Shown: positions 12,795 to 41,546 of the stretch, one piece after another
How the letters are laid out: each line of letters starts with the position of its first letter
Numbering within the stretch: position 1 is the stretch's first letter
From: Candidatus Omnitrophota bacterium
Lineage (GTDB): Bacteria > Hinthialibacterota > Hinthialibacteria > Hinthialibacterales > Hinthialibacteraceae
Direction of reading: 5' to 3'
Length of the DNA stretch: 64,000 nt
NCBI GenBank assembly: GCA_013177805.1
Contig: JABLXU010000013.1
Span: 1-64,000, forward strand
Program-made: the position numbers and the translations under genes
The notes under the pieces: model-generated
Database searches by the model: none
What the model was told of the DNA's origin: nothing
What the model saw: the letters and a program-made list of their open reading frames with translations, nothing else

Positions 12795-12958
12795 AAAACG
12801 GAGAGGGCGCCAGGCAGCCCATCCGTGGACACGGCTCATTCCCTTCTCTCCCGTTCGTCAAATCTGGTTGACACTGAAAACGCAATCATGAGAGAATGAA
12901 TCGAATCATTGGGAAATCCATTTATTTCAATGAGGCTGACTCATCGGGAGGCTCTACA

Positions 12959-13585
12959 ATGCGTATCGCCGGAGATGCCCGCCAGATCCGCCGGGGATTC
13001 ACCCTGATCGAATTGCTGATCGTCGTGGCGATCATCGGCATCTTGGCCGCGATTGCCGTGCCCAATTTTCTGAACGCGCAGGTCCGGTCCAAAGTCGCCA
13101 AGGCCGAGAGCGAAATGAACTCATTCGTGACCGCCTGCGAGATGTACCGGATCGATCACGGCAAGTATTTTCCCCATGCCGGCTATCCTTCCTCCGTTAT
13201 CCATGTCCCATGGCAGAACAAATACCTGACCACTCCCATCGCGTATTTCTCCGCCCAACCCCGTGATCCATTTCAGGACATCACCGTACCCGATCCCAAT
13301 TCCTGGAACCTGACCTTCGGCATGTATCACATGGAATCCATTTTTATGCCCGACGGCTCCTTCTATGCCGGCGGGGCGATGGATCCCAAGTTACGCGTGC
13401 CCAACAATCCCGCCGACGTGGCCCGCGCCTTTGCCAACCGCCCTCATTCGTATGAGTTGTGGAGCGTTGGCCCGAACAACAAACTCGATTACAACGTGGC
13501 GGGCAGCGGGATCACCGGCTTCATTTATTACCGGGCCAGCAACGGCATCCACAGTTTAGGCGACATTGTCTGGATCCGTCCCTGA
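12959..13585 (+). CDS. Type II secretion-style pseudopilin (orphan)
   Basis: ATG 12959 has GGGAG 8 nt upstream; an upstream in-frame ATG at 12896 lacks a site and would bury the prepilin leader. The 208-aa product has a short basic leader ending RRG, then FTLIELLIVVAIIG with the conserved Glu at +5 of the mature protein, the class III signal cut by prepilin peptidase. The helix continues into AAIAVPNFLNAQVRSKVAKA. The globular part ends with ASNGIHSLGDIVWIRP, the C-terminal SxGDI pattern shared with the other pseudopilins here. No secretion ATPase, platform protein, secretin or peptidase gene is nearby. Confidence 0.9.
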   Translation: MRIAGDARQIRRGFTLIELLIVVAIIGILAAIAVPNFLNAQVRSKVAKAESEMNSFVTACEMYRIDHGKYFPHAGYPSSVIHVPWQNKYLTTPIAYFSAQPRDPFQDITVPDPNSWNLTFGMYHMESIFMPDGSFYAGGAMDPKLRVPNNPADVARAFANRPHSYELWSVGPNNKLDYNVAGSGITGFIYYRASNGIHSLGDIVWIRP

Positions 13586-14519: not shown

Positions 14520-14993
14520 ATCTTGAGCCGTAGGGGCACGTGGCCACGTGCCCCTTCAAAAAACGAACATGTAGGATGGATTAGCGAAGCGTTATCCATC
14601 ATAACCCTTCCCTCGCCCTGGCCCGCTCCCCGAGAAAGAGATTTCTTATGTACTCCCATCTTCTATATGCATAACCCCCAATCATGCCATAAGAAATTGC
14701 TGCATTGGAGCAAATTGATTCAAAAACAGGAATGATCATTTAGAGTGAGTTTCCCCGGAAGGGTGTCCCCTCACAAAGGATTACGAAGGTGTTTCCATCC
14801 CGCTACTAAGTTATCCCATCAGCGAAACAGGAATAATAAATTCGATCTATTGATTAATTATTAACCATAGAAATCTATTTCGTCTCTATTTACTTATTTT
14901 AGGTGATAATGGTATATTCATCTCATCTCAATTCGATCTTGATCTTATAAAATCGATCATATGATCGAAAAAATCCGAAAGGAGAGCAGCAGA
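14520..14993. other. Repeat-rich gap and AT-rich leader
   Basis: The first 120 bp hold three repeats: a GGGGCACGTGG/CCACGTGCCCC hairpin (14533-14554), a family D hairpin GATGGAT...ATCCATC (14575-14600) and an inverted family A element (14605-14641). The rest is AT-rich non-coding sequence leading to the LamG gene, with a perfect palindrome listed separately. Confidence 0.7.
14953..14968. promoter_or_regulatory. Perfect 16-bp palindrome upstream of the LamG gene
   Basis: TCGATCAT/ATGATCGA is a perfect palindrome that ends 25 bp before the start codon at 14994, immediately upstream of the AAAGGAGAG ribosome site. It is a good operator candidate; the cognate regulator is unknown. Confidence 0.4.
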
Positions 14994-17018
14994 ATGAAGC
15001 AGCAGTTTTGGATGATTGGCGGGATTGCAGTGGCGGCCCTGGTGATCGGACCCTGGGGCTACACGCAAGAGGCAGGCGATGTCTACATGTGGGAATTCAA
15101 CGAGGGCAGTGGCACTACGGTGACGGATAACAGCGGCCAGTTCACGGCCAGCGTCGGTTTGCCCTTGGATCCCGCGCAGGTTCCAGAATCCCTCGCCGAT
15201 TCTCCCTCCGGTGCGGCGGGCGACCGGGCAGTGCGGGTGAACGGAGGCCTGACGGTCGACGACTCGGATTCCCCGGTGCTGGCCATCGAGTCGGGTCCCA
15301 TCACCATGGAAACCTGGATCAAGCTGGAAGGCCTGAATCAGTACAACGGCGTTCTCTCGTATGGGGCTTCTTACAAGATGGGTATCAACAACGGCGTCTT
15401 CGTTTGGACCTTCTATGGCATCGAGGATGTGAACAGCGGGATTGCCATCGAACCGGACAATGCCTGGCATCATATCGCCATGGCGTGGGAGCCGGGCGTG
15501 GGGGTGCATTTCTACTTGGATGGGGAATCGATGGGCATGGTAGAAACGGCCAATGCCGGCCGGGCGTTGCAAAACCACCTGCTGGATATCGGCAGCGAAA
15601 CGGCCGGCGCCAATCCCCTCCCCGGCCTCCTCGACCGGGTGCGGATCCACAACGCCGTGCTTACCGCCGATCAGCTCGACAGCGACGCGGCCCATCCCAA
15701 GGCGCCGTTGGCTGACACCATTGTGGCCTACGACTTCAACGAAGAACAACTGCCCTACGCGAATGGAGCCGGTGCTATCCGGCCGGCCGTAAGCACAGCC
15801 GAGCGGGCATCCGCCGACACCCGTCCGGATTTCGTGTTGGATTCCCCCACGGGAGCCGCCAACGATTATTCGCTCTATTTCGACGGGAATGACCGGGTCA
15901 TCTTCGTGGATGAGCAAGACATCATGCAGTTCATCGATGAAAGCTTCTCCTTTGAAGCGTGGCTGAAAATCGACGGCACGCAACCCAATAACCGCGCCAT
16001 CCTCTTCGCGTATGGCGTGGGCGGTCAGAACGGGTATTCGTTCTCGTTCCGGGACAACGGTCCCAAGCCCGCGGCGGATCCGGATTCGCCCTCCGGCCAG
16101 GCTGGCGATTACTCGGTCAAGGTGAACCGGGGATTGACCACGGATGATTCGGATAATCCCGTCTTGGCCATCCAGGAAGGCCCCATGACCCTGGAGGCCT
16201 GGATCAAACTGGAACGCTTGAACCAGTTCAATGACATTCTGTCCTACGGTGACACATACAAGATCGGCATCAACAATGGCCAATTCGTTTACACGTTCCG
16301 GACCATCGAAGATGTCAACAGCAATGTGGCCATCACCGCCGACAACCAATGGCATCACATCGCCATGGCCTGGGAACCGGGTGCAGGCGTGACTTTCTAT
16401 TTGGACGGCGTTCAGGCGGCTTATGTGGAAACCGGCAGCGCCCACCGGGAACTGCAGTCGAACATTCTTTATATCGGCACCGGCGCCGGCGGCAGCGCCT
16501 TGCCCGGCTGGATTGACCGCGTGCGGATCCACAACGCCGTGCTCTCCGCGGATCAACTGGACAGCGATCCGGCCCATCCCAAGGCGCCGTTGGCCAGCAC
16601 CGTGGTAGCTTACAATTTCGACGAAGGCCGGCTGCCCTATCAAAACCAGACCGGCACCCTCCGGCCCGCCGACAACCAACAGGGCCGCTTTACGCTGACC
16701 GTCACCACCTATGGGATCCTCGATGCCCATTCGAATGCCGAAATCCCGGATGACGGGCAATGGCATCACGTGGCGGCGGTGCACGACGTCTTCACGGAAC
16801 TGCGCTTCTATATCGACGGCCAGCTGAAAGAAACCAGGCCCTATGAAGGGGGGGTCCAGTTCGCGGAAGTATATGAATTCTTGATCGGCCATGAACGGAA
16901 CGGAGGTTTGCCCTATAAGGGTTCCATGGACCGGATCAAAATCACCCGCGCGGCGTTGACCGAAACCAGCCTTGATTACTTCCCGCCGGTTTCAGTGGAA
17001 GAGTGGTCCTTGTTCTGA
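14994..17018 (+). CDS. Exported multi-LamG protein ending in VEEWSLF
   Basis: ATG 14994 has AAAGGAGAG upstream. The 674-aa protein has a signal peptide (FWMIGGIAVAALVIGPWGY) and concanavalin/LamG-like jelly-roll modules, which commonly bind glycans or surface proteins. Module A1 covers residues about 66-266. Module B starts near 277 but is interrupted at residue 357 by a second A-type module (A2, 357-564), after which B resumes with RFTLTVTTYGILDAHSN to about 665. A1 and A2 share long near-identical strings such as WHHIAMAWEPG and DRVRIHNAVL. The last residues, VSVEEWSLF, match the end of the protein at 41739-44186 (AVDDWSLF). A terminator and then a pseudopilin gene follow directly. Confidence 0.85.
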   Translation: MKQQFWMIGGIAVAALVIGPWGYTQEAGDVYMWEFNEGSGTTVTDNSGQFTASVGLPLDPAQVPESLADSPSGAAGDRAVRVNGGLTVDDSDSPVLAIESGPITMETWIKLEGLNQYNGVLSYGASYKMGINNGVFVWTFYGIEDVNSGIAIEPDNAWHHIAMAWEPGVGVHFYLDGESMGMVETANAGRALQNHLLDIGSETAGANPLPGLLDRVRIHNAVLTADQLDSDAAHPKAPLADTIVAYDFNEEQLPYANGAGAIRPAVSTAERASADTRPDFVLDSPTGAANDYSLYFDGNDRVIFVDEQDIMQFIDESFSFEAWLKIDGTQPNNRAILFAYGVGGQNGYSFSFRDNGPKPAADPDSPSGQAGDYSVKVNRGLTTDDSDNPVLAIQEGPMTLEAWIKLERLNQFNDILSYGDTYKIGINNGQFVYTFRTIEDVNSNVAITADNQWHHIAMAWEPGAGVTFYLDGVQAAYVETGSAHRELQSNILYIGTGAGGSALPGWIDRVRIHNAVLSADQLDSDPAHPKAPLASTVVAYNFDEGRLPYQNQTGTLRPADNQQGRFTLTVTTYGILDAHSNAEIPDDGQWHHVAAVHDVFTELRFYIDGQLKETRPYEGGVQFAEVYEFLIGHERNGGLPYKGSMDRIKITRAALTETSLDYFPPVSVEEWSLF

Positions 17019-17148: not shown

Positions 17149-17709
17149 ATGAAAAACAGTCTTGGTTTTACACTGATCGAATTGCTGATTGTTGTAGCGA
17201 TTATCGGCATTTTAGCCGCCATTGCCGTGCCCAATTTTCTCAACGCCCAAATCCGCGCCAAGGTCGCTCGCGCCGAGGCCGATGAACGCTCTATCGGCAC
17301 GGCGTTGGAAGCGTACCGGCTGGATCACAACGCTTATCCCCTGGGCGGCGCCACCACCGGGGTGATGTTTGGACTGGACCGGCTGACTTCTCCCACGCCC
17401 TACATGTCCTCGTTGCCTACGGATCCTTTCGAGTTCAAAACCACGGTCACCGCGGGCGGCTACGGCTGGTTTCCGGATGTGATTCCCAACTATGTGTATC
17501 TCTACGCCAAGGGCGGCAGTGAAGCCCTCAGCCGCGATTACTTCTACAACACCGGCCGGATGAAAAGCCCGACTTCCGCTCCGCCTGCCATCGTGGACAT
17601 GTGGCAGCTCCGCAGTCTGGGCCCTAACGGCCAGGGCGATTACGCCTTGGCCTACAGCCCCACCAACGGCTTGGTCAGCATCGGCGATATTTGCCGCTTC
17701 GGACCATAG
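17149..17709 (+). CDS. Type II secretion-style pseudopilin (orphan)
   Basis: The start is ATG 17149 (MKNSLG then FTLIELLIVVAIIG), giving 186 aa with a five-residue leader before the cleavage Gly; a longer frame upstream passes through the terminator. The globular part contains YGWFPDVIPNYVYLYAKGG and the end is SPTNGLVSIGDICRFGP. Just upstream, GGAAGG serves better for a four-codon frame (ATG 17138) whose TGA overlaps this ATG as ATGA, so start-stop coupling is possible. The gene directly follows the LamG/WSLF gene and its terminator, so it is probably expressed from its own signals. Confidence 0.88.
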   Translation: MKNSLGFTLIELLIVVAIIGILAAIAVPNFLNAQIRAKVARAEADERSIGTALEAYRLDHNAYPLGGATTGVMFGLDRLTSPTPYMSSLPTDPFEFKTTVTAGGYGWFPDVIPNYVYLYAKGGSEALSRDYFYNTGRMKSPTSAPPAIVDMWQLRSLGPNGQGDYALAYSPTNGLVSIGDICRFGP

Positions 17710-40928: not shown

Positions 40929-41546
40929 ATGAAACAAAACCAATCCTTCACCCTGATTGAATTGCTGATCGTCGTGGCCATTATCGGCGTGTTGGCGGCC
41001 ATCGCGGTCCCGAATTTCCTGAACGCGCAAGTCCGGGCCTTGATCAGCCGTTCCATGGCTGACATCCGGGCGCAGGCGAACGCCATCGACATGTACCGGA
41101 TCGACAACAACTTCATTCCCTTCCGGCCGCCGGGATGGCCGTGCGGCCTGTGCGAAGTCAGCCAACTTTCGCACACGTACAACCTGAGTCCGATCACCAC
41201 TCCAATCGCCTACATGACCCAGATTCCATACGATCCGTTCATCGACATGCCCAGCAACGTGACGATGACCGACGACCGGGGAGACGGCCTGCAGGCGGGG
41301 TGGTATCTATACGTGGGGATCAAGCAGGGATTGGATTCCCTGCATGGGACCTGGTGGGTGTGGGGATGGGGGCCGGACAAGACGCGCCAGGCCTATCCCA
41401 CCCGCCCCTACGATCCCAGCAACGGCCTGAACTCCAAGGGGGACATCATCGCCAGCGAAAAGCAGGGATTCTTGCGGATCGACCTCTCCGGTCCGGCAGG
41501 CGTCCCCTACACCCAAGATAACGAAACCATCAAACTGGGACAATGA
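40929..41546 (+). CDS. Type II secretion-style pseudopilin (orphan)
   Basis: ATG 40929 opens a 205-aa product: MKQNQS then FTLIELLIVVAIIG, with Ser before the Phe. No strong ribosome site is present. The globular domain has a Trp/Pro/Cys-rich segment (FRPPGWPCGLCEVSQLSHTY) and ends beyond the shared NGLNSKGDI motif with a tail of about 30 residues. It is convergent with the gene of the 815-aa exported protein that ends VDDWSLF, with a bidirectional terminator between them. Confidence 0.9.
   Translation: MKQNQSFTLIELLIVVAIIGVLAAIAVPNFLNAQVRALISRSMADIRAQANAIDMYRIDNNFIPFRPPGWPCGLCEVSQLSHTYNLSPITTPIAYMTQIPYDPFIDMPSNVTMTDDRGDGLQAGWYLYVGIKQGLDSLHGTWWVWGWGPDKTRQAYPTRPYDPSNGLNSKGDIIASEKQGFLRIDLSGPAGVPYTQDNETIKLGQ

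Follow-up and report, generated by a model that had tools for sequence, protein, structure and literature searches.

The 64,000-nucleotide stretch of DNA analysed here (the window) carries an open reading frame of 685 aa (14961-17018, + strand) that encodes a protein composed of LamG modules. The ATG at 14994 is the likelier start, judged by eye from the AGGAG 5' of it and the typical signal peptide that follows; this putative signal peptide (MKQQFWMIGGIAVAALVIGPWGYTQ, 14994-15065, +) would leave a mature protein beginning at about Q36. Residue numbers for the mature protein and the host pieces (Q36, 36-69, 285-365, 578-675) are counted from the 14961 reading frame, and residue 356 of the original prediction, counted from the ATG at 14994, corresponds to residue 367 in this numbering.

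On the same strand, the signal peptide is followed by an N-terminal strand region (VYMWEFNEGSGTTVTDNSG..., 15066-15167; pLDDT 48-67), assigned by structural alignment and distance co-variation as the putative first piece of a host LamG domain, and by module A1 (15168-15812, +), a LamG body with the C-terminal strand IVAYDFNEE, delimited by structural alignment and Pfam. The first half of module B, up to GYSFSFR (15813-16055, +), and its second half, from LTVTTYGILDAHSN... to VS (16692-16994, +), are the putative second and third host pieces, both placed using relatives, profile halves and a structural model. Between them lies module A2 (16056-16691, +), a LamG body with the C-terminal strand TVVAYNFDEG, placed by the predicted fold of the isolated module, structural alignment and Pfam, with borders that are uncertain by about 8 residues. 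The chain terminates in the tail VEEWSLF and a stop codon (16995-17018, +), recognised by pattern search.

Upstream of the LamG gene are a T2SS protein G-like pseudopilin gene (12896-13585) and a TIM-barrel gene, while a second such pseudopilin gene (17149-17709, +; PF07963 9.3e-9, PF08334 2.6e-5) lies downstream, followed further on by BipA/TypA. An antisense open frame of 654 aa (14928-16892, -) most likely results from codon composition.

Module A2 and the uninterrupted relatives

The reading frame and the interruption of module B were both found where the original prediction had placed them. Pfam finds Laminin_G_3 (PF13385) four times in the protein, which scores 215.9 bits as a whole; against a curated cut-off of 27.6 bits, A1 reaches 74.5 bits (1.3e-20, 15180-15809) and A2 77.6 bits (1.5e-21). 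The protein thus resembles other bacterial Laminin_G_3 proteins in that all modules are well over the cut-off, but differs from them in that its host appears to be interrupted twice by modules of its own superfamily. The A1 and A2 units share 67% protein and 70% DNA identity (198 codons), as expected for the paralogues they were proposed to be, and a repeat search returns contiguous direct repeats at 15198-15497/16083-16382 (70%) and 15603-15757/16485-16639 (79%).

The two B pieces match different, complementary parts of the same A-type LamG profile, with positions 2-67 matched at residues ~294-358 of P0001 and positions 70-162 at ~580-672 (P0001 numbering starts six residues upstream), and A2 occupies the turn that links two neighbouring strands of module B. 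The nesting of a complete A-type module is therefore upheld, but not the borders first given for it (16062-16685). The copied unit begins at the LamG body (DSPSG) and not at a first strand of its own, extends past the A-type body through a copy of the next strand (TVVAYNFDEGRLPYQN...RPA), and ends after that strand (YNFDE...RPA); since the insert includes a copy of the following strand, the unit that was copied spans about nt 15190-15790. The repeat CCGCCGACAACCAA, at 16336-16349 and 16666-16679, was considered as a junction-repeat trace of the mechanism and rejected; as the corresponding stretch in genome G005 has other letters, we treat it as a chance occurrence.

Matches of any kind occur in 16 of 61 genomes, and a family of six genera holds 15 A-B proteins. 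Four of these, in three of the six genera, carry the A2 insert (one each in genomes G000 and G005, two in G002), and 11 lack it, namely four paralogues in the genome of the window and seven proteins in five family genomes. A scan of the genome contigs returned 10 loci, including the two nested copies of G002 and two uninterrupted ones. In the relatives without the insert, B runs unbroken (for example GGYSFSVTNDPRKVFVTTYGILD) across the join GYSFSV-x5-6-VFVTTYGILD, which confirms that the halves join when the insert is absent. The complementary profile halves, B itself in these relatives and the host tree together indicate that the pieces form one domain where the insert is missing. The family also includes two free-standing single-module proteins of 281-284 aa, L035 (1360-2211) and L026 (G003:C10), both of which consist of the A unit with the C-terminal strand and without the N-terminal one; in the relatives, the N-type and post-A strands were assigned by eye from the sequences. 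The alignments and trees do not include the weaker LamG matches outside the family or G002:C49, G003:C31, G004:C58, C64 and C76:61023. Also among the 10 contig loci is a protein of a Verrucomicrobia MAG (L049:302-5200) in which other sequence lies between three A-B LamG pairs, with a pseudopilin-like ORF directly downstream.

Phylogeny and history of the copies

A tree of 42 modules separates A and B into two clades (100/99), and the B modules of the four proteins with A2, joined across the insert, form one clade (100/100) within the B clade. The A1 and A2 copies, in contrast, group by genome and not by position: they pair in G000 (99/92) and in G002 (99/96), whereas in G005 A1 groups with G000 and A2 does not. 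AU tests reject A1 as one clade and A2 as one clade (p 0.00029 each), and the eight A1/A2 modules together occupy one side of a weakly supported branch (70/94). Within G002, identity is 0.73 for the N piece, 0.77 for the middle and 0.78 for the C piece; it is lower, at 0.53, for A1.

Clustering by genome and not by position is consistent with a single old insertion and later gene conversion, and this is the simplest reading of the A1/A2 history that the sequences suggest. Alternatively, the lineages of G000, G005 and G002 may have gained the insert in two or three separate events, with the resident A1 as the source in each case. The pairing of A1 with A2 in G000 and G002 would be expected from such repeated events, as would the linker letters at the insert ends, which vary among lineages. 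However, all four proteins agree in the host turn and the unit borders, their host is monophyletic (100/100), and the G005 pattern is more simply explained by conversion, so that repeated insertion seems rather unlikely to us.

The insertion had been proposed to be recent. It is found at the same place in four proteins of three genera, with A1 and A2 only 50-67% identical within each protein, and an insert shared in this way is neither an artefact nor recent. The accompanying proposal of recombination between paralogues fares better, in that the conversion-like pattern points to continued exchange between the copies; it is the recent date that does not hold.

Predicted structures and the placement of A1

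When the A2 insert was modelled alone, AlphaFold2 returned a confident jelly-roll (pLDDT 88.9, pTM 0.88) with an ordered C-terminal strand. The model aligns end-to-end, from residue 1 or 8-19 to 209-212 and with Z of 15-20, to pentraxin-type domains (PTX3, SAP, CRP, the LamG of PAPP-A) and to the N-terminal domain of dimethylformamidase; examples are 8s50_A (Z 18.9, model 9-210) and 6lvb_A (Z 19.8, model 1-210). Since these alignments include the C-terminal strand, the predicted insert fits the pentraxin strand order, in which the last strand lies at the C-terminus, although identity to these domains is only about 15%. The Pentraxin profile (PF00354, cut-off 25 bits) falls short in P0001 (20.7 bits) and lists neither A1 nor A2 alone at 0.01; the other family members scanned are below the cut-off or, in L002, at it (25 vs 25 bits). 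Matches to clostridial neurotoxin binding domains and Toxin_R_bind_N were set aside as reflecting a shared jelly-roll only (Pfam below cut-off, about 8-16% identity in the structural rows).

The full-length model, the structure prediction called for by the original prediction, predicts three closed jelly-rolls (Z by VIA-align up to 20 across the AlphaFold2 models), at low confidence: mean pLDDT is 75.3, pTM 0.50 and the N-terminal strand 48-67, from only 5 sequences. The closest short solved domain to the predicted host is AbnA domain 4 (5hon_A), a CBM-like LamG of a GH43 arabinanase that also scores best by sequence against the A profile (3.4e-5). It aligns over 195 of 206 residues (chain 640-845, Z 19.9) to model residues 1-639 and, unlike the host here, is uninterrupted in its crystal chain. 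To A2 alone, LamG/CBM domains of this kind align only partially, with their first 35 residues unmatched (5hon_A: chain 675-845, model 1-171). Other single jelly-rolls align to the full-length model from residue 1-5 to 639-646, while matches to A1 run from 35-52 to 246-249 and those to A2 from 339-348 to 539-540. These ranges record the first and last aligned residue only, so that membership of the middle host piece is indirect. Foldseek on the whole model returned only multi-LamG proteins, the best rows having an rmsd of about 20-29, and its output was disregarded.

A solved jelly-roll of 206 residues that spans model residues 1 to 639 suggests that the N-terminal strand belongs to B, and that A1, too, is nested. 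Among the 15 proteins (105 pairs), identity in the N-terminal strand tracks that in B (r 0.87; partial r given A 0.79) and not that in A (partial r given B -0.22); a jackknife over proteins gives 0.76-0.82 for B and -0.28 to -0.12 for A. The post-A strand co-varies about equally with A (0.24) and B (0.21). Model and co-variation both favour A1 as a putative further insert in a host closed by the N-terminal strand, albeit one of pLDDT 48-67.

This departs from the original topology, in which A1 was an ordinary first module that used the N-terminal strand, B began at IVAYDFNEE and only A2 was nested. LamG domains commonly begin with such an N-terminal strand, the strand here immediately precedes A1, and the model is of low confidence at its N-terminus, all of which would suit a sequential A1. 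Yet this arrangement would deprive A2 and the two free-standing proteins of a first strand and would have each of them followed by a strand with no domain to join, and it disagrees both with the structural ranges of A1 (35-249) and the host (1-639) and with the partial correlations; we regard it as unlikely.

It is very improbable that A2 is a degenerate insert devoid of fold or function. It is slightly less conserved than the C piece of its host (52% against 62% between G000 and G005), but its frame is open in all four nested proteins, differences are about twice as frequent at third as at second codon positions (0.58 vs 0.26, G000/G005), and on its own it is predicted with high confidence to fold autonomously. 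An assembly or annotation artefact, a concern raised for the insert borders, is next to inconceivable, nothing having been found in its favour: the copies are 70% and not near-identical in DNA, and the same architecture appears in contigs of three assemblies, in one of them on two separate contigs.

A proposed nested LamG array and its C-terminal tail

We therefore favour, with a probability of roughly four in five, a single LamG host that two copies of one module, of which the relatives carry one, divide into residues 36-69, 285-365 and about 578-675. A1 would separate the first host strand from the remainder, and A2 would occupy a hairpin turn. The ancestor of the family would have had A1 only; an entire A unit, comprising the body and the C-terminal strand that goes with it, may then have been copied once into a second host loop before genera G000, G002 and G005 separated, and recombination would since have made the two copies more alike. 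A pentraxin-ordered LamG has its two ends near each other, so that such a unit can fit in a turn without breaking the host, and a strand order with adjacent ends explains why nested growth works. With less assurance, though thinking it on balance probable, we hold a more general proposition: a LamG host takes up copies of a pentraxin-ordered module in one loop after another, so that the array grows by nesting and not in tandem. The ancestor would have had one such copy against two here, relatives also have the module as a free-standing protein, and the copies would be subject to conversion.

The product would be a secreted surface or matrix protein with three jelly-rolls in one chain, which may bind extracellular carbohydrate or matrix polymer as a compact trivalent unit; export, binding and multivalency are all inferred. 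Repeat proteins usually grow in tandem, whereas this family appears to grow by nesting modules inside a module of their own superfamily, a conserved form that is unusual yet understandable, as it would pack three putative binding domains into one chain. Living relatives display the states before and after (free module, one insert, two inserts), and the step lends itself to folding experiments. Automatic domain borders, which read A and then B, are probably wrong for all proteins of this family.

The rarity claimed for such nesting is relative. An ECOD-based survey counts 48,551 domain-insertion events, 65.8% of them between different homologous groups and hence, by subtraction, about a third within one group (PMC13114784). 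The A1-B-A2 insertion architectures in the accessible part of that survey are alike in that one domain interrupts another, and insert and host of the same group do occur; the terms 'same superfamily', 'self-insertion' and 'jelly' were not found in that part (PMC13114784). A literature search, confined to listings apart from this survey, found no paper on a LamG nested in a LamG or on the LamG proteins of this lineage.

The tail of the protein follows the pattern Vx[DE]W[SA]x[YF]-stop, which has 21 matches in its own genome, 16995-17018 (+) and 41739-41762 (-) among them, and occurs at 106 places in 10 of 14 genomes of the phylum; the reversed control has 0 in all 14. In the own genome, 20 of the tails were examined: each closes an ORF of at least 361 aa, 17 of the 20 ORFs have a crude signal-peptide match, and by blastp the 20 fall into 11 unrelated groups. 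The 21st is the paralogue L037. NCBIfam returned no C-terminal sorting family for five tail proteins, and a literature search on the tail letters found nothing relevant. The tail is a candidate for a new, lineage-specific C-terminal sorting signal.

The own genome has 127 N-methyl (pseudopilin) motifs, and 8 of the 21 tail genes have such a motif within 2 kb, where 1.8 would be expected under uniform density (binomial 2e-4). Pseudopilin places near tail genes include 12896-13585, 17149-17709 and 40929-41009. The free-standing proteins L035 and L026 carry related C-terminal tails, VWEIYP and QWDLFR.
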